Assembly: GCF_014145675.1 (NCBI RefSeq)
Contig: NZ_JACGZW010000008.1
Span: forward strand, 124,001 to 188,000
Direction: 5' to 3'
Length of the DNA stretch: 64,000 bases
Origin: Amycolatopsis dendrobii
GTDB taxonomy: Bacteria > Actinomycetota > Actinomycetes > Mycobacteriales > Pseudonocardiaceae
Shown: positions 36,274 through 47,547 of the stretch, piece by piece
How positions within the stretch are numbered: position 1 is the stretch's first letter
Layout of the letters: every line of letters starts with the position of its first letter
The notes under the pieces: model-generated
The model's input: the letters and a program-made list of their open reading frames with translations, nothing else
Told to the model about the DNA's origin: nothing
Databases searched by the model: none
Translations under genes and position numbers: made by a program

Positions 36274-36304
36274 ACCCCAAACGTCCACTTTGGATGCCAT
36301 TGGG
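36274..36304. repeat. Diverged member of the CCAATG palindrome family
   Basis: ACCCCAAACGTCCACTTTGG followed by ATGCCATTGGG. It keeps the CCCCAA...TTGG outline of the copies at 2671 and 30722, with a partial second copy of the core. It lies 28 nt after the nitroreductase stop. Confidence 0.5.
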
Positions 36305-37465
36305 CCGGTGTCGCGCAGCGGCCCACGGTTCGCCTGACCGCACCGGCCTCGGCTGACCAACCGCGGTCGCCGGCCGGGGCGGCCCGCTGACGCACGCCGC
36401 CGCCGGTGAGCGCGATTCCTCCGCGTTCACCGGCGGCTTCGTTGTGGAGCCGTCTCACGCGAAGACGGCGGCGCCCGCCACCGCGGCCCGGCGAGATGCC
36501 GCCCTCGGCGGCGACCGGGCCGGGGAGCTCCTGTCCGGGCAGCGGAGCGGGCATCGGACCTCGCGGGAATCCCGGGACGAACCGGAGCGGGCGTCCTTGC
36601 CTCCCCGCACCCGGGGCGCGATCCGGGAAATCCGGACAACACGAAAATGTTTCAATACCGCTGGAAAGCCGCGCGAAGAGACATAATTCCCGTCACTGGT
36701 CCGGCGCTTCGCTTCACCTCCGCGACTGGGCGCGAAAGCCGCCCTCGGCCGTTTTCGCCCGAGAAGGCGTCCGTGCGAGCTTCCTGCGCAACCCGGCAAT
36801 AACCGACGCACGCACGACAAGAACCGCACCGGAGCAGTACCGATCCGGCCGAACAGCGCAATCACGCCCGCCGTCTGCCGCACGCCTCACCCTGGCGGCA
36901 GAAACCCGGGGCACGAAACGGCAATTCCCTCGAAAGTGCCATCAATCCCGTGAGACAGCACTTGCATATTCCGACCTGATGCGCAATGTCCCCGAATTCG
37001 AGGACCAAGGAACCTTGACGGCCGCCCCGCGGCCGTCGCGGCGAGGCCGGACACCCCCTGCGCACAGCGACTTCGCGCCACTCGTTGTGCCACGGATTTC
37101 ACCCCAGCGGAGCAGTTCCACGTGCGCCAACCGGGGAATCCGCACCCCGAAAGAAGGGAAATCCTGGTAACATCGCCCGTGCGGAGGATCGGTTTGCGGT
37201 AAACGCACGACGACGATCAGACTTCACCGGAACCCTTCGCCGGACCCTCCCGGATCCGTCGACAGCTGCCACTGGCTGTTGAAAAATAAAGGGTATTCGC
37301 GGCCTAAGTCCTCTTTGCCAGATAAATACCCGTTCGCGTGGTCTAGACCTCAATCTTCGGTCGTGCCGTATTTGTCAGCCGCGACGCGCATCGAACAGGT
37401 CACGAAATTGTCAACACCGACGTCCGTAGGTTACGTCGGCGTTACATCCACCGATGATTAGGCAT
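36305..37465. other. 1.2-kb gene-free, lower-GC region before the NRPS-like cluster
   Basis: No ORF with recognisable content on either strand. From about 36640 the sequence is visibly richer in A and T than the flanks, for example GTTGAAAAATAAAGGG near 37278. GGGTATTCGCG near 37293 is echoed in inverse and direct form by AAATACCCGTTCGCG near 37323, a potential large hairpin. Such a region is a plausible Lsr2 target and promoter for the cluster, but no promoter is certain. Confidence 0.6.
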
Positions 37466-39967
37466 ATGGATCTCACCGAGTACCCGACCGCCCGCCCCGG
37501 TCCGGCACCCGACACCGAAGAAGCATTCGCCCAGGTGATGGCCGATGTCACCGGGCAGGAAAACGTGTCGGCCGACAGCAACTTCTTCGCCGATCTCGGG
37601 GCCAACTCGCTCGTGCTGGCACAATTCTGCGCGCGAGTGCGCAAGCGTGCCGATCTTCCCTCCGTCTCCATCAAGGACATTTACCGGAATCCGACCATCG
37701 CCAGTCTCGTGTCGGCGCTGGCCGAGCCAGCGGAAGTCCCGGCCGAAGCACCCGCTCCCGCGCCCGCCGAGCCGCCGAAGCGGGCGAGCAGGCTCGAATA
37801 CTTCGGCTGCGGTTTCCTGCAGTTGGTGATTTTCCTTGCCTATTCCTGGCTCGTGGCCCAGGTGCTCGGTCTGGGAACCGACTGGATCGTGGCCGGGACC
37901 GGGCTGCTCGACTACTACCTGCGCGCGGTCGGGTTCGGCGCCATGGTGCTGGTCGTCCTGTGCACCCTTCCGATCGCGCTCAAATGGATCCTCGTCGGCC
38001 GCTGGAAGCCGAGGGAGATCCGCGTGTGGTCCCTCGGGTACGTGCGGTTCTGGGTGGTCAAGACGCTCGTCCAGCGGAACCTGCTGGTCCCGCTCTTCGC
38101 CGGTTCCCCGCTCTACTCGCTGTACCTGCGCGCGCTCGGCGCGAAGATCGGCAAGGGCGTCACGATTTTCTCCCGCTACGTCCCGGTGTGCACCGATCTG
38201 CTCTCCGTCGGGGACGGCACGGTCATCTGCAAGGACACCTACTTCACCACCTACCGCGCGCAGAACGGGCTCATCCAGACCGGGCCGGTCGCGATCGGCG
38301 CGCACGCCTACGTCGGCGAGATGGCCGTCATCGACATCGAGACCAGGATCGGCGACAACGCCCAGCTCGGGCACGCCTCGTCGCTGCACGCCGGGCAGGC
38401 GATCCCGGAAGGGCAGAGCTGGCACGGCGTGCCCGCCGTCCCCGCCGACGTGCTCTACCGGCGGGTCGAGCCGCGGGCCTGCGGAAGCGTCCGGCGGGCG
38501 TTTTTCGCCGTGCGCCAGGCGCTGACCGCGGTCTTCCTGATGGCTCCGCTGGTGCTCGGCCTGCTCGGCTTCGTGCTGAACACGCTGCCGAACCTCAGCC
38601 CGGCGATGGGGCTCGGCTCGGCCGTCATGGACTTCACCTACCCGAAGTTCTACTGGAAGGCGCTCGTCGTCTCCTTCATCCTGTACTTCGGCCTGCGGCT
38701 GACCGGCTTCCTGATCGTCACCCTGGTCCCGCGGCTGCTGAACCTGGCGCTCAAACCCGGCGAGGTCTACCGCCTCTACACCCTGCGCTACACCGCGCAC
38801 CGCGCCGTCCGCGCGCTCACGAATCTGCGGTTCTTCAAGACTCTTTTCGGCGACAGTTCGGCCATCGTGCACTTCCTGCGCTTGCTGGGCTGCAAGGTCT
38901 CCAAGAAGGAACAGACCGGGTCCAACTTCGGGCTCGAGGAGAAATTCGAGAACCCGTACCTGTTCGAGGCCGGCGCGGGCACGATGGTCGCCGACGGGCT
39001 CTCGGTGGTCAACGCCGAGTACACCAACACCTCCTTCCGGCTTTCCCGGGTGCGCGTCGGGGCGCGGAACTTCCTCGGCAACCACGTCGTCTACCCCGCC
39101 GGCGCCAAGACCGGGGACAACTGCCTGCTCGCCACGAAGGTCCTGGTGCCGCTCGACGGCCCGGTGCGCGAGGGCGTCGGGCTGCTCGGCTCCCCCAGCT
39201 TCGAGATCCCGCGCTCGGTGGAGCGCGACAGCCAGTTCGACCATCCGAAGACCCCGGAGGAATTCCGGCGCAGGCTGGCCGCCAAGACGTTGCACAACGT
39301 CGGGGGCATGCTGCTGTACGCCTTGTCCCACTGGCTGTTCTTCTACGGCCTGCTGCTGATGACCTGGGCCTCGGACGTCTACTACGGCGTGATCGGCGCC
39401 CCGCTGTTCGCGATCGACACGCTGGCCTTCCTGCTGTACGGCACGGTCTTCTTCGTCGCCCTGGAACGGATCACCGTGCTGATCCGGCCGCTGCGCCCGC
39501 TGTCGTGCTCGATCTACGACCGGCGGTTCTGGCGGCAGGAACGGTTCTGGAAAGCCGCGGCGACGAACGCCCACCTGCGCGTGCTCGACGGGACCCCGTT
39601 CAAGAGCGTGCTGTGGCGGCTGCTGGGCATCAAGGTCGGCAAGCGCCTGTTCGACGACGGCGCGGGCATCATCGAGAAAACGCTGGTGCGCATAGGAGAC
39701 GACGTCACGCTCAACGTCGGCTCCGTCGTCCAGTGCCACTCGCAGGAGGACGGCGGTTTCAAGATGGACCGCATCTCCATCGGCAGCGGGTGCACGGTCG
39801 GCATCGGCGCGCTGGTGCATTACGGCGTGACGATGGGCGACGGCTCGACGCTCGCCCCCGATTCCTTCCTCATGAAGGGCACTGAGGTCCCGGATCGCGC
39901 GCACTGGGGCGGGAACCCCGCGCACGAGATCGGGGCGGGCCGCCGTCAGCTGGCGGCGAGATCGTGA
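37466..39967 (+). CDS. Carrier protein fused to a Pls-type six-helix, three-LbH terminal module
   Basis: 833 residues. Residues about 12-80 are a peptidyl carrier domain, with the phosphopantetheine Ser in FFADLGANSLVLAQF. Then three units repeat: a membrane helix pair (about 113-185, 350-425, 615-690), each followed by a left-handed beta-helix hexapeptide domain (about 215-335, 450-600, 705-825). Examples are IGAHAYVGEMAVIDIETRIGDNAQLG and ISIGSGCTVGIGALVHYGV. This is the layout of the C-terminal half of epsilon-poly-L-lysine synthetase (TIGR02353-type terminal domain), where the three domains polymerise the amino acid. The adenylation domain usually fused upstream is missing and is probably supplied by the next gene. 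ATG 37454 is an equally possible start; neither has a good ribosome site. Confidence 0.88.
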   Translation: MDLTEYPTARPGPAPDTEEAFAQVMADVTGQENVSADSNFFADLGANSLVLAQFCARVRKRADLPSVSIKDIYRNPTIASLVSALAEPAEVPAEAPAPAPAEPPKRASRLEYFGCGFLQLVIFLAYSWLVAQVLGLGTDWIVAGTGLLDYYLRAVGFGAMVLVVLCTLPIALKWILVGRWKPREIRVWSLGYVRFWVVKTLVQRNLLVPLFAGSPLYSLYLRALGAKIGKGVTIFSRYVPVCTDLLSVGDGTVICKDTYFTTYRAQNGLIQTGPVAIGAHAYVGEMAVIDIETRIGDNAQLGHASSLHAGQAIPEGQSWHGVPAVPADVLYRRVEPRACGSVRRAFFAVRQALTAVFLMAPLVLGLLGFVLNTLPNLSPAMGLGSAVMDFTYPKFYWKALVVSFILYFGLRLTGFLIVTLVPRLLNLALKPGEVYRLYTLRYTAHRAVRALTNLRFFKTLFGDSSAIVHFLRLLGCKVSKKEQTGSNFGLEEKFENPYLFEAGAGTMVADGLSVVNAEYTNTSFRLSRVRVGARNFLGNHVVYPAGAKTGDNCLLATKVLVPLDGPVREGVGLLGSPSFEIPRSVERDSQFDHPKTPEEFRRRLAAKTLHNVGGMLLYALSHWLFFYGLLLMTWASDVYYGVIGAPLFAIDTLAFLLYGTVFFVALERITVLIRPLRPLSCSIYDRRFWRQERFWKAAATNAHLRVLDGTPFKSVLWRLLGIKVGKRLFDDGAGIIEKTLVRIGDDVTLNVGSVVQCHSQEDGGFKMDRISIGSGCTVGIGALVHYGVTMGDGSTLAPDSFLMKGTEVPDRAHWGGNPAHEIGAGRRQLAARS

Positions 39968-39999
39968 CGGATCACCGACAATCACGGGAAGGACGACCC

Positions 40000-42483
40000 A
40001 TGAGAACCGGACTGGGAGCGGTTCGCGAGCATTGGCGCGAAGTACTCACCGCCGGCGGCCGCACCAGCGTCCCGCGCTGGACGCTGGCGGCCGGATCCGC
40101 GATCGGCGACCACGAAACGCCGGTCCCCCGGGGGCTCGCGGCCGCGCTGCGGCTGCTGGCCGAGCAGCTGCGCGTGCCGCTGAGCTCGGTGCTGCTCGCC
40201 GCGCACGCCAAGGTCCTCGCCGCGCTGTCGGGCGAGACCGAGGTGTGCACCGGCTACGTCGCCGAGCCGGGCGGGACGCCGCTGCCCTGCCGGCTCAGCA
40301 CCGAATCCGGCACCTGGCGCGAGCTGATCGAGCACGCCGCGGCGATCGACGCGCAGACCCTCGCCTTCCGGGACTTCCCGGTCGACGAACTGCGTGCCGA
40401 ACTCGGCATCATCGCGCCGCCGTTCGAAACGGTCTTCGACCCGACCCGCGCCGACGGGGACCTCGCCGGGGACATCGTGCTGCGGCTGGACGTTTCGCCG
40501 GATCTGGAGACGCTCCGGTTGCGCTTCCGCACCGAGGTGCTGGATTCCGAAGCGGCCGAACGCATCCTCGGCTACCACCTGAGCGCGCTCAGCCTGATCC
40601 GCACCGACAGCACCGCACCGCACCAGGAAACGACCCTGCTGTCGGCGGCGGAGCTCAAGCTGCAACTGGAAGGGCTCGCCGGGCCGCACGTCGAGGTGCC
40701 GGACCTGCGGTGCCACGAACTGTTCCAGCGCAACGCCGCCCGGAATCCGGACGCGATCGCCGCGGTGCACGGCGACCGGCGGTGGACGTACCGGGAGCTC
40801 AACGGGCGCGCCAACCGCCTGGCGAGGGCGCTGGTCGCGCGCGGGCTGCGCCGCGAGGGCGTCGTCGCGGTGGTCACCGAACGCAATCTGGACTGGATGG
40901 CCGCCGTGCTCGCCGTGTTCAAGGCGGGCGGCGTCTACCTGCCGATCGAGCCGCATTTCCCGGCCGACCGCATCGCGACCACGCTGCGCCGGGCCGACTG
41001 CGAACTGGTGCTGACCGAACCCGGCAGCACGACGACCCTGCGCAAGGCGGTCGAATCGCTGCCCGGCGTGCGCACGCTGTTCGTGGACGCCGCGTACGAG
41101 GAGGACCATTCCGAAGACGATCTCGGCGTCGCCGTCGAATCCGGCCAGCTCGCCTACATCTACTTCACCTCGGGCTCCACCGGCGAGCCGAAGGGCGCGA
41201 TGTGCGAGCACGCCGGGATGGTCAACCATCTCTACGCCAAGATCAACGACCTCGGCATCACCGAGGAGTCGGTGGTGGCGCAGGTCGCGCCGCAGTGCTT
41301 CGACATCTCCCTGTGGCAGCTGGTCTCCGCGCTGCTGGTCGGCGGGACCACGCTGCTGATCGAACAGGACGTGATCCTGGACGCCGACCGCTTCGTGGAC
41401 CGGCTCGGCAGCGGCGGGGTTTCGGTGCTGCAGGTCGTGCCGTCCTACCTCGAGGTCGTTCTGTCCGCTGTGGACAAGAACCCGGTCGCGCTGCCGGATC
41501 TGCGCTGCGTGTCGGTGACCGGCGAAGCGCTCAAAACCGAGCTGGCACAGCGCTGGTTCGCCACGATGCCGGACATCAAGCTGGTCAACGCCTACGGCCT
41601 CACCGAAACCTCGGACGACACCAACCACGAGGTGATGGACCGCGCGCCGGCGCGGGAGCGAGTGCCGCTCGGGCCGCCGGTGCAGAACGTGTGCGTGTAC
41701 GTGGTCGACGAGCGGCTCGACCCGGTCCCGCTCGGCGCGCCCGGGGAGATCGTGTTCTCCGGGGTGTGCGTCGGCCGCGGGTACGTCAACGACCCGGAGC
41801 GCACCGCGCGGGCGTTCACCACCGACCCGCATCGCCCGGACGCCCGGCTCTACCGCAGCGGCGACCACGGCCGCTGGCTGCCCGAGGGCAAGCTGGAATT
41901 CCTCGGCAGGCGCGATTCGCAGGTCAAGATCCGCGGTTTCCGGATCGAGATCGGCGAAATCGAGAACACGCTGCTGCGGGTGCCCGGAGTACGCGACGGC
42001 GCGGTGGTCGTGGCCGACCGCGGCGGACAGGGCAAACGGCTGGTCGCGTTTTATTCGAGCCGGGAACAGCTCGACCACGAGCAGATGCGCGAGCACCTCG
42101 CCGCGGCGCTGCCGGAGTACATGCTGCCCTCGGCATTCCATTGGCGCGAGCGGCTGCCGTTGACCGCCAACGGGAAAATCGACAAGAAGAACCTCGCCGC
42201 GCTGGCCGCCGAACTCGACGCCGTCGACGAGGACTACGACGCACCGGTCACCGGCACCGAAGAGCGGCTGGCCGGGGCCTGGGCGGACGTGCTCGGCATC
42301 CGGGCGGGCCAGGTCGGCCGCCGGGACCACTTCTTCGACCGGGGCGGCACGTCGCTGTCCGCGGTGAAGCTGGCGATCGCGCTCGACCGCGCGGTCTCGA
42401 TCAAGGACGTCGCCAAGCACCCCGTGCTCGCCGACCTGGCCGCGCTGATCGACAGCCGGTCCGCTGCCTCCGGAAACTCCTGA
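40000..42483 (+). CDS. NRPS protein: partial condensation - adenylation - carrier
   Basis: 827 residues. Residues about 1-190 resemble the C-terminal half of a condensation domain (DFPVDELRAEL) but lack HHxxxDG, so it is unlikely to condense. The adenylation domain (about 205-720) has YFTSGSTGEPKGAM, FDISLWQ, NAYGLTETSDD and YRSGDHGRWLPEGKLEFLGRRDSQVKIRGFRIE. The carrier domain ends with HFFDRGGTSLSAVKLA. The pocket residues I can place are D (core 235), I, W and two Asp at the 330/331 positions; an acidic pocket suits a basic side chain such as Dap, by inference. ATG 40000 has GGAAGG upstream. The possible earlier GTG 39964 adds codons unlike the rest (CAA, TCA). Confidence 0.93.
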   Translation: MRTGLGAVREHWREVLTAGGRTSVPRWTLAAGSAIGDHETPVPRGLAAALRLLAEQLRVPLSSVLLAAHAKVLAALSGETEVCTGYVAEPGGTPLPCRLSTESGTWRELIEHAAAIDAQTLAFRDFPVDELRAELGIIAPPFETVFDPTRADGDLAGDIVLRLDVSPDLETLRLRFRTEVLDSEAAERILGYHLSALSLIRTDSTAPHQETTLLSAAELKLQLEGLAGPHVEVPDLRCHELFQRNAARNPDAIAAVHGDRRWTYRELNGRANRLARALVARGLRREGVVAVVTERNLDWMAAVLAVFKAGGVYLPIEPHFPADRIATTLRRADCELVLTEPGSTTTLRKAVESLPGVRTLFVDAAYEEDHSEDDLGVAVESGQLAYIYFTSGSTGEPKGAMCEHAGMVNHLYAKINDLGITEESVVAQVAPQCFDISLWQLVSALLVGGTTLLIEQDVILDADRFVDRLGSGGVSVLQVVPSYLEVVLSAVDKNPVALPDLRCVSVTGEALKTELAQRWFATMPDIKLVNAYGLTETSDDTNHEVMDRAPARERVPLGPPVQNVCVYVVDERLDPVPLGAPGEIVFSGVCVGRGYVNDPERTARAFTTDPHRPDARLYRSGDHGRWLPEGKLEFLGRRDSQVKIRGFRIEIGEIENTLLRVPGVRDGAVVVADRGGQGKRLVAFYSSREQLDHEQMREHLAAALPEYMLPSAFHWRERLPLTANGKIDKKNLAALAAELDAVDEDYDAPVTGTEERLAGAWADVLGIRAGQVGRRDHFFDRGGTSLSAVKLAIALDRAVSIKDVAKHPVLADLAALIDSRSAASGNS

Positions 42484-42518
42484 ACCTCCCGAACCGCGGA
42501 AATCGAAGGGATTCCACG

Positions 42519-43532
42519 ATGTCGTTGTCCAAATTCCTGCCGAAGACTTCCCCGCCCGAGCCGGATTTCTGTCCCGGGCTGCCCGCGGTGCTGCGGGCCG
42601 AGGCAGGCGGCGACCCGGCCGGATGGGCGAGCACGCACCGGGAGACCGTGCGAAGACTCGTCGCCGAATACGGCGCGGTGCTCGTCCGAGGTCTCGGGCT
42701 GGCCGAACAGACCGCGGTCGCGGCCGTGTTCGGGCGGCTGACCGACCTGCTGATGACCGAGCGGGAGGCGTTCGCGCCGCGCACCGCCTACCCCGGCGGG
42801 GCGCACTCCTCGACCGAATGGCCGCCGAACCAGCCGATGTGCATGCACCACGAACTCAGCTACACCCTGGAATTCCCGGGACTGATGCTCTTCGCCTGCG
42901 TCAGCCCGCCGTCCTCGGGCGGGGTCACCGGGGTCAGCGATTCCACCGCCGTGCTGGCCTCGCTGCCCGCGGACCTGCGCGCGCGGTTCGAACGCGACGG
43001 CTGGCTGCTCACCCGCAGCTTCAACGACGAGATCGGGGCCTCGGTCGCCGAAGCGTTCGGCACCGAGGACCGCTCCGCGATCGAGCAGTACTGCCGCGCC
43101 AACCGGATCGAGTTCGAATGGCAGCCCGACGGCGGCCTGCGCACCCGGCAGCGCCGCGACGCGATCGTCGGGCATCCGGTCACCGGCCAGCCGTGCTGGT
43201 TCAACCAGATCGCCTTCCTCAACGAGTGGACGATGGCCCCCGAGGTGCACGAGTACCTGGTCGACATCTACGGGGCCGACGGCCTTCCGTTCAACACGCG
43301 CTTCGGCAACGGCGACCCGATCGGCGAGGACGTCGTGCGATTGCTCAACGAGGTGTACGAGGAACACACCGCCGGAGAACCGTGGCAGGCGGGAGACCTG
43401 CTGCTGGTCGACAACGTCCGCACCGCGCACAGCCGGGACGCCTACGAGGGCCCGCGCGAGGTGCTCGTCGGACTGGCCGACCCGGTGCGGCTTTCCGACT
43501 GCTCGCTCGCTTCCGAGGGGAAAAACCAGTGA
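42519..43532 (+). CDS. SyrP/TauD-like Fe(II)/2-oxoglutarate dioxygenase
   Basis: 337 residues. The iron triad is H110-x-E112 in MHHELSYT and H304 in RTAHSRDAYEGPRE, with R313 as the 2-oxoglutarate salt-bridge Arg. HxE with these flanks is the SyrP/clavaminate-synthase-like group, which hydroxylates carrier-bound or free amino acids (SyrP makes beta-hydroxy-Asp). Here it could hydroxylate Dap or the loaded intermediate, an inference from position. The gap from the NRPS gene is 35 nt, and AAGGGATTCCACG precedes the ATG. The stop overlaps sbnB (GTGA). Confidence 0.9.
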   Translation: MSLSKFLPKTSPPEPDFCPGLPAVLRAEAGGDPAGWASTHRETVRRLVAEYGAVLVRGLGLAEQTAVAAVFGRLTDLLMTEREAFAPRTAYPGGAHSSTEWPPNQPMCMHHELSYTLEFPGLMLFACVSPPSSGGVTGVSDSTAVLASLPADLRARFERDGWLLTRSFNDEIGASVAEAFGTEDRSAIEQYCRANRIEFEWQPDGGLRTRQRRDAIVGHPVTGQPCWFNQIAFLNEWTMAPEVHEYLVDIYGADGLPFNTRFGNGDPIGEDVVRLLNEVYEEHTAGEPWQAGDLLLVDNVRTAHSRDAYEGPREVLVGLADPVRLSDCSLASEGKNQ

Positions 43533-44596
43533 CGACGCAATCCTTCACCGCCGAATCCGCTTCGGCGGGCCCGGTCGCCGTGCCGCCGTTCGCGGTGATC
43601 TCCGGCGCCCAGGTCCAGCAGGCGCTGTCCGGGCGCGAACGCGAGGTCGTCGACCTCGTCGAGACCGCCTACCGGGTGCACGGCTCCGGCGATTCGGTGA
43701 ACCCGCCCTCCTATTTCCTGCGCTTCCCCGACCGTCCGGCCGACCGGATCATCGCCCTGCCCGCCTCGCTCGGCGGGAAGACCAACGTCGCGGGCCTGAA
43801 GTGGATCTCCAGCTTCCCGGGCAACGTCGCCGCCGGGATCCCGAGGGCCTCTGCGGTGCTGATCCTGAACGATCTCGCGACCGGATATCCGTTCGCCTGC
43901 CTGGAAAGCTCCATCATCAGCGCGACCAGGACGGCCGCCTCCGCCGCGCTCGCCGCGGACTGGCTCAGCCGGACCCGGCAGCGTCCCCGGCGCGTCGGGT
44001 TCTTCGGCGTCGGCCTGATCGCCCGCTACATCCACACCTTCCTCGCCGGGACCGGCTGGGAGTTCGACGAGATCAACGTGCACGACCTGCACCCGGACAG
44101 CGCCGCCGGATTCCGCGGCTACCTGGAGCAGTCCGGCTTCGCAGGCGAGATCAGCGTCCACGACACCGCCGAGGGCCTGATCCGCGGCAGCGACCTGGTG
44201 GTCTTCGCGACCATCGCCGGCGAACCGCACGTGCACGATCCCTCGTGGTTCTCGCACAATCCGCTCGTCCTGCACGTGTCCTTGCGCGATCTGGCCCCGG
44301 AAGTCCTGCTGGCGTCGGCGAACATCGTCGACGACGTGGACCACTGCCTCAAGGCCAACACGTCGCCGCATCTGGTGGAGCAGCGCACCGGCAGCCGGGA
44401 CTTCCTGCTCGGCACCCTCGACGACGTGCTGTCCGGCCGGGTCAGCCCGCCGGCCGGCCAGCCGTTGATCTTCTCCCCGTTCGGGCTCGGCGTTCTCGAC
44501 CTCGCGGTCGGGGCCTTCGTCCACGAGAGAGTGTCCGACGCCGGCGGACTGCACGTCATCGAGGACTTCTTCCACGAACTGCGCCGGTATGGCTGA
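43529..44596 (+). CDS. sbnB: SbnB-like N-(1-amino-1-carboxy-2-ethyl)-glutamate dehydrogenase
   Basis: 355 residues of the ornithine-cyclodeaminase/mu-crystallin family. ASLGGKTNVAGLKWISSFPGNVAAGIPRASAVLILND and ESSIISATRTAASAALAADWL are SbnB hallmarks; VGFFGVGLIARYIHTFLAG is the NAD site. In staphyloferrin B biosynthesis SbnB oxidatively hydrolyses ACEGA to L-2,3-diaminopropionate and 2-oxoglutarate. With SbnA next, the pair secures Dap supply. The GTG start overlaps the dioxygenase stop, GAGGGG lies ahead. Confidence 0.94.
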   Translation: MTTQSFTAESASAGPVAVPPFAVISGAQVQQALSGREREVVDLVETAYRVHGSGDSVNPPSYFLRFPDRPADRIIALPASLGGKTNVAGLKWISSFPGNVAAGIPRASAVLILNDLATGYPFACLESSIISATRTAASAALAADWLSRTRQRPRRVGFFGVGLIARYIHTFLAGTGWEFDEINVHDLHPDSAAGFRGYLEQSGFAGEISVHDTAEGLIRGSDLVVFATIAGEPHVHDPSWFSHNPLVLHVSLRDLAPEVLLASANIVDDVDHCLKANTSPHLVEQRTGSRDFLLGTLDDVLSGRVSPPAGQPLIFSPFGLGVLDLAVGAFVHERVSDAGGLHVIEDFFHELRRYG

Positions 44597-44637
44597 GCGC
44601 CGTCCGCCACTGAGCTTTGCCTGAAGGGGAGAAAACT

Positions 44638-45612
44638 GTGCGAGTCATCACCGTTCCCGAAGCTTTCAACGAGGAGGCGCTGTACGTCGACCTCCGCTGG
44701 AGTTTCGGCTATTCGCTCTACCTCAAGTGCGAGGGGTTCAACTTCGCAGGCTCCATCAAGCTGAAGGCCGCGACCGAAATGGTCGACGCGGCCGAACGCG
44801 ACGGCCTGCTGCGGCCGGGCTCGATCATCGTCGAATCGTCCTCGGGCAACCTCGGCGTCGCCTTGAGCATGATCGCGGCCAGCCGGGGGTACAAGTTCCT
44901 GTGCGTCACCGATTCCCGCTGCAACCTCGCGACGCGCCGCGCGATCGAGGCGCTCGGCAACGAGGTGCACATCATCACCGAACCCAGCCCCGAAGGCGGT
45001 TTCCTCGGGGCGCGCATCGACCACGTGCGCATGCTGGTCGCCTCCGACGAGCGCTACGTGTGGCTCAACCAGTACACCAACCCGGACAACTGGGGAGCGC
45101 ATTTCCAGCGCACCGGACCGGAGATCGCCGCCGCGTTCCCGAATCTCGACGTGCTGTTCGTCGGCGCGGGCACCACGGGCACCCTGATGGGCTGCGCGCG
45201 GTTCTTCCGGCAATGGCACCGGCCGGTGCGGATCGTCGCGATCGACAGCGTCGGCTCGGTGACCTTCGGCGGCCCGGCGGGCAGGCGGATGCTGCCCGGG
45301 CTGGGCACCAGCGTGCGCCCGGCGATCCTCGACGAGTCCTATGTGGACGACGTGGTCCTCGTCGAGGAACCGGATTCGGTCCGGGCGTGCCATCGGCTGG
45401 CGCGCAACGGCTTCCTGTTCGGCGGCTCGACCGGGACGGTCGTCAGCGGAGCCACGAGCTGGCTGTCCGAACACGACGCACACCACCTGACCGCGGTGGC
45501 CGTCGCCCCTGACCTCGGCGAGCGGTACCTCGACACGATCTACCAGACCAACTGGCTGCAGGGCATCTACGGAGAGGACGTGCTTTCGCCCCGGCCGCGC
45601 CAGTCCGTCTGA
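44638..45612 (+). CDS. sbnA: SbnA-like N-(2-amino-2-carboxyethyl)-L-glutamate synthase
   Basis: 324 residues of the PLP-dependent cysteine-synthase fold. The Schiff-base Lys lies in FAGSIKLKAA. SSSGNLGVALSMIAASRGY binds the substrate, and GAGTTGTLMGCARFF the PLP phosphate. It joins O-phospho-L-serine and glutamate to make the Dap precursor used by SbnB. GTG 44638 is chosen because AAGGGGAG lies 7 nt before; a TTG at 44617 would put that site inside the gene. It is the last gene of the cluster; a strong hairpin follows. Confidence 0.94.
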   Translation: MRVITVPEAFNEEALYVDLRWSFGYSLYLKCEGFNFAGSIKLKAATEMVDAAERDGLLRPGSIIVESSSGNLGVALSMIAASRGYKFLCVTDSRCNLATRRAIEALGNEVHIITEPSPEGGFLGARIDHVRMLVASDERYVWLNQYTNPDNWGAHFQRTGPEIAAAFPNLDVLFVGAGTTGTLMGCARFFRQWHRPVRIVAIDSVGSVTFGGPAGRRMLPGLGTSVRPAILDESYVDDVVLVEEPDSVRACHRLARNGFLFGGSTGTVVSGATSWLSEHDAHHLTAVAVAPDLGERYLDTIYQTNWLQGIYGEDVLSPRPRQSV

Positions 45613-45618
45613 CCCGCG

Positions 45619-45650
45619 CGCGGCGCACCGGCGTTCCCCGGTGCGCCGCG
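45619..45650. terminator. Bidirectional terminator after sbnA
   Basis: CGCGGCGCACCGG (45619-45631) is perfectly inverted at 45638-45650 with a 6-nt loop, between the convergent sbnA and L,D-transpeptidase genes. Confidence 0.85.
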
Positions 45651-45661
45651 CCGCGGCGGGC

Positions 45662-46834
45662 TCAGTCTTTCTTCTGCCATTCGTCCCAGCTGAAGCGCCA
45701 GTCGGTCCAGCCGTCGCCGGGTTTGAGGTCGACGCCGGTGTCGGTCACCGTCACGACGTCCCCGCGATGGGAGTTCTCGTAGAACCACTTCGCGTTCTCG
45801 ACGCTGACGTTGAGACAGCCGTGCGAGGTGTTGGTGTGCCCCTGCTGCCGGACCGACCACGGCGCGGAGTGCAGGAACTGACCCGAGTTGGTGAGCCGCA
45901 GCGCGTACTTGACCGTGGTGCGGTAGCCGCCCGGCGAGTCGGTGGGCACGCCGTACGTGCTGGAGTCCATGGTGTACGGCGACTGCACGGTCATGATCAG
46001 CATCGTGCCCGAGACGCTGCGCGCCGACGGCTTGCCGAGGCTGACCGGGGACGTCAGGACGAGCTGGCCGTCCTTGTACGTCCGCATCTGCTTTTCCTTG
46101 TCGGACACCTTCGAGATGATCGACGGGCCGGTCTTGAAGCTGATCTTGCGGTCGGCCTTGCCGAACACCCCGTTGCCGAGCGCACGGCCGGCGATTTTGA
46201 TGTCGAGGGTGATCGTGGAGTACGCGGGCCAGTATTCCTTGGTGCGGTAGTGCACCTCGTCGTCGCCGAACCAGCGCCACGCGCCGGTGGCGGGCTTGTC
46301 GGAGGTGACGGTGAGCATCTTCTCGGCAGCGGCCTTGTCCGCGACCGGCGCGGAGAACTTGATCGTGATCGGCATGCCGACGCCGGTGGTCTCGCCGTCG
46401 AGCGGGATCACCGACGGGTACGCCTGCGCCTTCGCGGCCGCGGTGGTGAAGGTGCTCGTACGGGTCACCGGGTTGCCGTCCGCGCTGGCGGAGCGTGCGG
46501 TGAGCGTGTACTTCGTGCGGTATTCCAGGGGTTTGCTGCTGGTCCAGCGCTGCTTCGCGGCGTCCATCCCGCCGGGAACCGGGGTGCCGTCCGCGGCGGC
46601 GAGGGTGACCTCGCTGAGCGTGGACCCGCCCGCCACCGCGGTGACGGGTTCACCCGGTGCGACGTCGTTCGAGCCGTCCTTCGGCCCGAGGTCGAGGGTC
46701 GCGGGCGCCGGCGCCGCGCTGGTCTTCTGTTCGGCGCCGGCAGCGGGACCGGGCTCCGGTGCGGACGTGCACGCCGCCGTCAGCGCCAGCCCGGCAACGA
46801 TCCCCCCGATGATCTGCGTTTTTCGCCCCAGCAC
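45662..46834 (-). CDS. L,D-transpeptidase lipoprotein (YkuD domain)
   Basis: 390 residues. A lipoprotein signal ends at LTAAC, with the lipidated Cys at 22. Ig-like domains follow (about 45-250), then the YkuD domain with the catalytic motif SHGCLN (H338, C340) and upstream H322. Such actinobacterial Ldts make 3-3 cross-links in peptidoglycan and resist most penicillins. The start is GTG 46834. An inverted repeat 24 nt upstream resembles a BlaI-type operator, and blaI itself is 1 kb away, so beta-lactam-responsive control is plausible. Confidence 0.93.
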   Translation of the reverse strand: MLGRKTQIIGGIVAGLALTAACTSAPEPGPAAGAEQKTSAAPAPATLDLGPKDGSNDVAPGEPVTAVAGGSTLSEVTLAAADGTPVPGGMDAAKQRWTSSKPLEYRTKYTLTARSASADGNPVTRTSTFTTAAAKAQAYPSVIPLDGETTGVGMPITIKFSAPVADKAAAEKMLTVTSDKPATGAWRWFGDDEVHYRTKEYWPAYSTITLDIKIAGRALGNGVFGKADRKISFKTGPSIISKVSDKEKQMRTYKDGQLVLTSPVSLGKPSARSVSGTMLIMTVQSPYTMDSSTYGVPTDSPGGYRTTVKYALRLTNSGQFLHSAPWSVRQQGHTNTSHGCLNVSVENAKWFYENSHRGDVVTVTDTGVDLKPGDGWTDWRFSWDEWQKKD

Positions 46835-46857
46835 CTGATTTGCCCCCGTTCGCCCTT

Positions 46858-46875
46858 ACTACCGGACATAGTAGT
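46858..46875. promoter_or_regulatory. Putative BlaI-type operator before the L,D-transpeptidase
   Basis: ACTACCGGACATAGTAGT: inverted ACTAC/GTAGT arms. Read on the other strand it shares the CTACTATG and CCGG blocks with the 49412-49436 palindrome. Confidence 0.65.
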
Positions 46876-46883
46876 CATACCGG

Positions 46884-47547
46884 TCAGGCGTGGAGCAGAG
46901 CGGGAGTCGCCGTCCAGGCCCCGGCGGCGATCAGGGCCACGGCTGTGCTCACGGGGAGTAACGCGGCCGTCGCGAAGGCGAGAACACCGGTAATCGCGGT
47001 GTGCCGCCCGCGGGCGAAGTGTTCGAGCCGGAGCTCGTGTCCGCCGAACGCACCGGATGCGTCCGGTCCAACGCCGCGCTGACGGTCGCCGCTCCATGCC
47101 GACGTCCAGCCGCGGTGTCCGCGCTCAGCTCGACCGCAGCGGCGACGAACTCCGGCGACCGCCGGGCCGGCGGAACGAACGACAGCGCCGCCGACACCGC
47201 GTGCGCGAACCCGGCCAGGCGGTGATGCCGTCCGCGCAGATGGGACCCGTTCGTGGTCGACGACCGCGGCGAGTTCGGTTTCGGAGAGATCCTTCGCGAG
47301 CCCTTCGGAGAGCACGACGAGGCCGGTCGTGCAAGCGAAGCTGACGCCGATACAGGCGGATCGACGCCAGCGCGAACGCCGTCGCTACCGCACCTGCTCC
47401 GGCCGCGATCATGCCGCCCAGCAACAGAATCCACGCGCCAAAACGCAGCGTCGCCGGCATCCGTGCCCGCAATACGCGACGCAGCAACAACGGTCCGCGG
47501 CAACCCGCCATCGCCGCAGTCGCGACGAGCGCCGCGGAGACGATCAC
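46884..47547 (-). pseudogene. Degraded BlaR1-like M56 peptidase
   Basis: The GTG at 47547 overlaps the blaI stop, the normal blaI-blaR arrangement. The reading frame then breaks about three times. The helices MPATLRFGAWILLLGGMIAAGAGAVATAFALASIRLYR are in frame 1 and LSEGLAKDLSETELAAVVDHER in frame 2. One extra G near 47244 splits the HExxH motif (HER/SHLRGRHH), and a further shift occurs near 47060 before GAFGGHELRLEHFARG. About 70 residues also seem to be missing between the helices and the protease core. It cannot make a working sensor; sequencing error would need several independent indels. Confidence 0.85.

Follow-up and report, generated by a model that had tools for sequence, protein, structure and literature searches.

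A stretch of 64,000 nucleotides of Amycolatopsis dendrobii DNA (contig NZ_JACGZW010000008.1, positions 124,001 to 188,000; hereafter the window), from a genome of 9.69 Mb, carries five closely spaced genes on the + strand (37454-45612 of the window) that probably form a working pathway to an unrecorded isopeptide derived from 2,3-diaminopropionate (Dap). They encode, in order, T-TM, a carrier (T) domain joined to a terminal membrane domain of the Pls/PosA type; AT, an adenylation-carrier protein; a TauD-family oxygenase; and the Dap-synthesis proteins SbnB and SbnA. The best overall explanation, to which we give a probability of roughly 0.6, is that Dap is loaded in trans and oxidised to feed a Pls-type polymerase, Pls being epsilon-poly-L-lysine synthetase, and that T-TM descends from a fused enzyme. 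By family membership, SbnA and SbnB would make L-Dap, which AT would adenylate and load onto its own carrier and, in trans, onto that of T-TM. TauD would oxidise either carrier-bound Dap or a Dap residue within the chain. By homology to Pls and to poly-Dap (PDAP) synthetase, the three-unit terminal domain would, at the membrane, use the carrier-bound monomer as donor and build a short isopeptide chain whose units are joined by their side-chain amines. T-TM would derive from a fused adenylation-carrier-terminal domain protein (A-T-TM), whose cis adenylation domain decayed once the trans station took over.

Domain profiles bore out the layout given in a preliminary description of these genes, with every named part found in its place. 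T-TM (37454-39967, +; start ATG at 37454 or 37466) scores 701 bits with TIGR02353 (cut-off 423.1), covering profile positions 2-695 of 695, and the three repeated units fall within the Pls/PosA terminal domain. Numbered from 37466, Pfam and TIGR profiles place the carrier (PP-binding) at residues 21-84 and the terminal domain at 115-819. The profile search gave no AMP-binding match in T-TM, whose stop-to-stop frame is 845 aa, and the cis adenylation domain that precedes the carrier in Pls and PosA is absent. The carrier keeps its active-site serine in all 79 readable rows of 81 aligned. The terminal module had been thought to hold an extra carrier, yet published Pls and PDAP synthetases have that carrier too; T-TM departs from Pls by the missing adenylation domain, and the additional carrier is that of AT. 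The description of three helix-pair units was upheld. In the AlphaFold model of T-TM, whose mean predicted local distance difference test score (pLDDT) is 64, long helices form three pairs (109-142/147-176, 341-380/393-427 and 597-643/646-673), and units 1 and 3 have beta-helix strands; residues 477-594 of unit 2 have pLDDT below 50. Profile comparison related C1 to C3 (probability 99%) and C1 to C2 (91%), but C2 to C3 with just 26% (E 7e-4). Elsewhere, T-TM proteins with two or three carriers in tandem, likewise lacking an adenylation domain, were seen at L068, L082, L122, L137 and L056.

Adenylation very probably acts in trans on T-TM, as had been proposed, a view backed by AT co-occurrence, orphan T-TM genomes, decayed cis domains and a natural fusion. 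A T-TM-clade gene occurs in 71 of 199 Streptomyces-genus genomes (taken from the genus of S. jeddahensis); judged by frame length alone, with long frames taken as fused A-T-TM, 67 are split and 4 have only long frames (1388-1412 aa). AT (E <= 1e-200) was found in 67/67 split T-TM genomes versus 13/132 others, and the T-TM-clade genomes without AT, G218 and G323, have just long frames, of 1392 and 1412 aa, which were counted as fused. All eight genomes with an orphan T-TM hold AT elsewhere, at 65-74% identity (in two pieces in G153, and matching over 351-820 only in G156). The window's own genome has a second split T-TM, 70% identical (G000:C2:412794-415277; L007, 10642-13131), with no AT, TauD or Sbn gene in the 19 kb around it. 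The orphan evidence is suggestive, not proof, because 40% of the sampled Streptomyces-genus genomes have AT anyway. In four genomes, T-TM retains a cis adenylation domain that has lost its core motifs, each beside a full AT (L040/L011, L041/L012, L178/L038 and L179/L036), and at L174 a single 2301-aa protein comprises T-TM, AT and TauD; no further fusion was found among the long open frames of nine loci (L186-L194). In a T-TM tree of 118 of 120 rows (L055 and L067 dropped as duplicates), 14 of the 16 fused-labelled rows group together (Shimodaira-Hasegawa approximate likelihood ratio support, SH-aLRT, 91), apart from the split rows (82), and the remaining two, L036 and L038, are decayed-domain cassettes. 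A precedent for the chemistry is CmnA-A1, which loads Dap in trans for CmnI in capreomycin biosynthesis (PMC12400406).

AT (40000-42483, +) is the separate adenylation-carrier protein that had been described, matching AMP-binding, AMP-binding_C and PP-binding, with a condensation C-lobe at about residues 1-230, adenylation at 242-726 and the carrier at 755-817. Its N-terminus is neither the full domain nor does it have the HHxxxDG of an active condensation domain: PF00668 was unmatched in the window AT, with a weak C-lobe match in one homologue, and a pattern search found HHxxxD missing in 71/71 named homologues. The adenylation signature is DIWQSTADDK, as in the window, in 89 of 108 AT rows and DIWQSTTDDK in 15, the remaining four being near variants or cut off; these rows are not a genome count, as the same genome can stand under two ids (e.g. 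L040/L067, L045/L110, L046/L126 and L048/L106). An adjacent Asp pair at signature positions 330/331 is present in 108/108 rows. The signature suggests a small diamino acid, and a published beta-hydroxy-diaminobutyrate (Dab) code, DVWQMIGDDK, agrees with it at 6/10 positions (PMC12283262). Outside the T-TM cassettes, 19/19 AT loci stand with diamino-acid genes, namely SbnA and SbnB (10) or a set of PALP, argininosuccinate-lyase-like and ATP-grasp genes (9). The 19 comprise all 11 from the T-TM-free genomes of the 199-genome sample plus 8 others; 17 were compared together, and L189 (SbnA/SbnB) and L190 (PALP set) were added. Because of this linkage and the signature, Dap is the likely residue activated by AT. 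At the nine PALP-set loci, 2,3-diaminobutyrate is a possible alternative; it is the product of such a set in friulimicin biosynthesis.

These nine (L167-L170, L172, L175-L177 and L190) form a T-TM-free cluster type, in which a GHMP kinase occurs in 7/9 and TauD in 6/9, and where a thioesterase was confirmed by Pfam in L167 and L172. At L161, AT, TauD, SbnB and SbnA adjoin a run of ketosynthase, FabA-like, short-chain dehydrogenase/reductase (SDR) and thioesterase-like genes that resembles a highly reducing type II polyketide synthase cluster. The same four genes lie inside nonribosomal peptide synthetase (NRPS) clusters at L162, L164 and L165, and L164 also has another TauD-family gene and a gene for an adenylation-ketoreductase-carrier protein. 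Enamidonin-type lipopeptides, which contain Dap, were considered as the product of these NRPS-linked loci and set aside, the gene-level link not being readable.

A dedicated Dap supply is supported by both the family scores and the gene linkage. SbnB (43529-44596, +), whose GTG start overlaps the TauD stop, scores 422.8 bits against TIGR03944 (cut-off 326.9), and SbnA (44638-45612, +), with a GTG start 3' of a ribosome-binding-like site and a possible upstream TTG at 44617, scores 381.1 bits against TIGR03945 (cut-off 349.95). Both identities are thus above curated cut-offs, and the two genes are linked in the cassette and at AT loci elsewhere. The dioxygenase gene (42519-43532, +) was likewise recovered, matching the TauD profile at 150 bits as an Fe(II)/2-oxoglutarate oxygenase with its iron ligands kept. 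Among solved structures, At3g21360 (1y0z, E 2.8e-25) is closest to it in sequence, and clavaminate synthases match much more weakly. By alignment, HxE is present in 70/70 rows, and the distal His and the oxoglutarate-binding Arg in 68/68 readable rows; carrier and TauD motifs were counted in this way, pattern counts having missed true ones through gene-start errors and strict patterns. TauD is present at 16 of the 19 AT loci outside the T-TM cassettes and is fused to AT at L160 and L177. Because the iron ligands are kept and the fusions at L160, L177 and L174 join it to a carrier protein, TauD likely acts on a carrier-bound substrate.

The beta-hydroxylation proposed in the preliminary description is doubtful. 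Since the beta-carbon of Dap carries an amine already, a hydroxyl group added there would give a hemiaminal, and plain beta-hydroxylation of free Dap is chemically unlikely. Desaturation is more plausible than hydroxylating the free-amine form, and so is oxidation next to an acylated nitrogen. Precedents for oxidising Dap-derived units include the late action of the non-heme iron oxygenase SulO on the Dap-derived ring of sulfazecin (PMC11298585) and the dehydrogenation of carrier-bound Dap proposed for the flavin enzyme VioJ in viomycin biosynthesis (PMC10880069). Alanosine was rejected as a precedent, its Dap oxidation being hypothesised to be flavin-dependent.

The split layout recurs widely. 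In a T-TM scan of named genomes, from which the best 80 of 535 matching stretches were kept, all five genes are present at 63/80 loci, 59 of them in the window's order and orientation, which rules out a local oddity or a broken gene. Of the 65 loci flanked on both sides by 7 kb or more, 57 have the whole cassette, 1 lacks SbnB and 7 have T-TM alone. The hosts are Streptomyces, Amycolatopsis, Pseudonocardia, Kibdelosporangium, Kutzneria, Actinomadura, Rhodococcus, Modestobacter, Blastococcus, Actinacidiphila and a Pseudonocardiales genome, the closest named T-TM relative within these best 80 of 535 being that of Amycolatopsis nivea (93%). Under strict clustering, no family of flanking proteins occurs in at least 8 of the 63 complete loci, and under relaxed clustering the maximum is one sigma-factor-like family at 8/63. 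No flanking family exceeds 8/63, and therefore the conserved unit is the five genes: a conserved sixth gene was rejected and, in line with the preliminary description of these genes, no transporter or resistance gene is conserved beside the cassette. AT is present in 80/199 Streptomyces-genus genomes, and is commoner there than in samples of the window's order (5/200, E <= 1e-180) or phylum (7/296, E <= 1e-200), both counted with the window's genome.

The nine orphan T-TM neighbourhoods have only a few pairwise gene matches in common. The second T-TM of the window's genome, on contig C2, is near a MurJ-like flippase and a major facilitator superfamily (MFS) gene. Orphan T-TM genes are also found on two large Streptomyces plasmids (L195, NZ_CP013744.1; L196, NZ_CP074103.1), the former with a CopC gene and two cation diffusion facilitators in its vicinity.

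Several observations weigh against trans loading and oxidation by a station that replaced a fused domain. The assignment of Dap to AT rests on signature and gene linkage, and the exact DIWQSTADDK signature was not found in the open-licence literature, which yielded just a related Dab code. Physical linkage and shared ancestry inflate the T-TM/AT co-occurrence counts. The split group of the tree is not cleanly one clade, the supports of 82 and 91 being unstarred and the labels needing 11 changes. TauD is missing from the orphan T-TM loci and from L169, L170 and L190. In genome G139, two T-TM loci (L056 and L057) have TauD and no adjacent AT; the same genome has the full cassette L179, and a separate AMP-binding gene lies upstream in the Pseudonocardia plasmid that L057 matches. 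Finally, a GxSxG thioesterase motif lies 3' of the carrier in 44/71 AT proteins, which agrees with a different use of AT: together with TauD, and the thioesterase where present, it could release a free oxidised diamino acid; T-TM would receive that acid or Dap in some other way, and the product could be a small molecule. Although the AT/TauD/SbnBA set in other clusters without T-TM also agrees with free release, the window AT has no such motif, AT presence tracks split T-TM, and nature has fused the two; we consider this reading improbable. A thioesterase is also missing from PDAP synthetase (PMC4668381).

A simpler possibility is that the genes make plain poly- or oligo-L-Dap, with AT replacing the lost cis adenylation and the oxygenase decorating the finished polymer or serving a minor target. 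A fused Pls-type enzyme is already known to make poly-Dap (PMC4668381), and the orphan T-TM loci do without TauD. Against this, 58 of the 65 well-flanked loci have TauD and the seven without it are those with T-TM alone, the oxygenase keeps its iron ligands, and three loci have it fused to AT or to T-TM-AT; we consider this reading rather unlikely. The remaining comparison is with dapdiamide, in whose pathway a truncated condensation-adenylation-carrier (C-A-T) protein, a 2-oxoglutarate oxygenase, SbnA/B and ATP-grasp ligases yield an epoxide or fumaramoyl dipeptide antibiotic. Three gene kinds (half-C-A-T, oxygenase and SbnA/B) are in common, and T-TM would then be a release or export part; yet no ligase gene recurs beside the cassette in the 63 complete loci and the AT signature points to a diamino acid, not to valine, leaving such a pathway very improbable. 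Beyond trans loading and oxidation for a Pls-type polymerase, a broader proposal is tentative, and in our estimate falls somewhat short of even odds: that AT, TauD and the Dap supply are a portable load-and-oxidise station, plugged into ordinary NRPSs and a ketosynthase-rich pathway as well as into Pls-type membrane polymerases. In combination with the last, it might make an oxidised isopeptide oligomer (built e.g. of N-acyl-hydroxy-Dap or dehydro-Dap). Such an oligomer would be a bacterial poly(amino acid) of a chemically new class, and unlinked T-TM polymerases elsewhere in the genome might be charged by the same station.

The closest known system is the poly-Dap synthesis of Streptomyces albulus PD-1, in which a fused A-T-terminal domain protein is encoded by an open reading frame of 4,338 bp and the Dap enzymes NjxA and NjxB by adjacent genes (PMC4668381). 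It shares with the window the Pls-type terminal domain of three tandem units and the supply of Dap by cysteine-synthase-like and ornithine-cyclodeaminase-like enzymes. It differs in having A, T and terminal domain in one protein, and the accessible portions of that report mention neither an oxygenase nor a second A-T protein (PMC4668381). The suggestion that the window encodes a new poly(amino acid) machine stands in part: poly-Dap from a fused enzyme is already known, whereas the split layout, the oxygenase and the wide conservation are new, and the accessible parts of the open-licence literature gave no description of a split Pls system or of the five-gene cassette. The Pls and PosA (delta-poly-L-ornithine) synthetases of TIGR02353 have the same terminal domain with three units between helix pairs (PMC10522769), but with adenylation in cis, of which T-TM has none. 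A model of this domain is given in the PosA study, whose network was restricted to 1100-1800 residues (PMC10522769), and T-TM, at about 840 residues, would fall outside it because of this limit. As in capreomycin, where a module that lacks adenylation receives Dap on its carrier from a separate adenylation domain (PMC12400406), T-TM has a carrier with its active-site serine kept and no adenylation domain of its own; CmnI, however, ends in a condensation domain rather than a Pls membrane domain, and CmnA-A1 is part of a larger NRPS. SyrB1 and SyrP, an A-T protein and a separate non-heme iron oxygenase acting on the carrier-bound amino acid, resemble AT and TauD in their general layout.

The present system separates loading from polymerisation in nature, and so bears on how Pls-type membrane domains polymerise and whether they take monomers from outside. 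Evolutionary intermediates and a natural fusion are at hand, and carrier-bound monomers could be supplied to probe the polymerase. With split T-TM and AT in 67/199 genomes, a probably unrecorded Dap-derived product would be expected in many Streptomyces-genus genomes. The window's genome also has two long A-T-TM TIGR02353 frames (L001/L008 on C10 and L004/L009 on C45; 1327 and 1354 aa) with the signature DAESIGT..K and may, from these sequences, also make a Lys- or Orn-type polymer.

Around the operon, no Rfam family reached its gathering score in 36300-46900, and a known structured RNA was accordingly set aside. Between the operon and a converging L,D-transpeptidase gene (45662-46834, -) lies a perfect inverted repeat of 12 bp with a loop of 6 bases (45620-45649), terminator-like but without a T run. 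A homologue of the transpeptidase gene is downstream of the cassette in 4/63 loci, all from Amycolatopsis.

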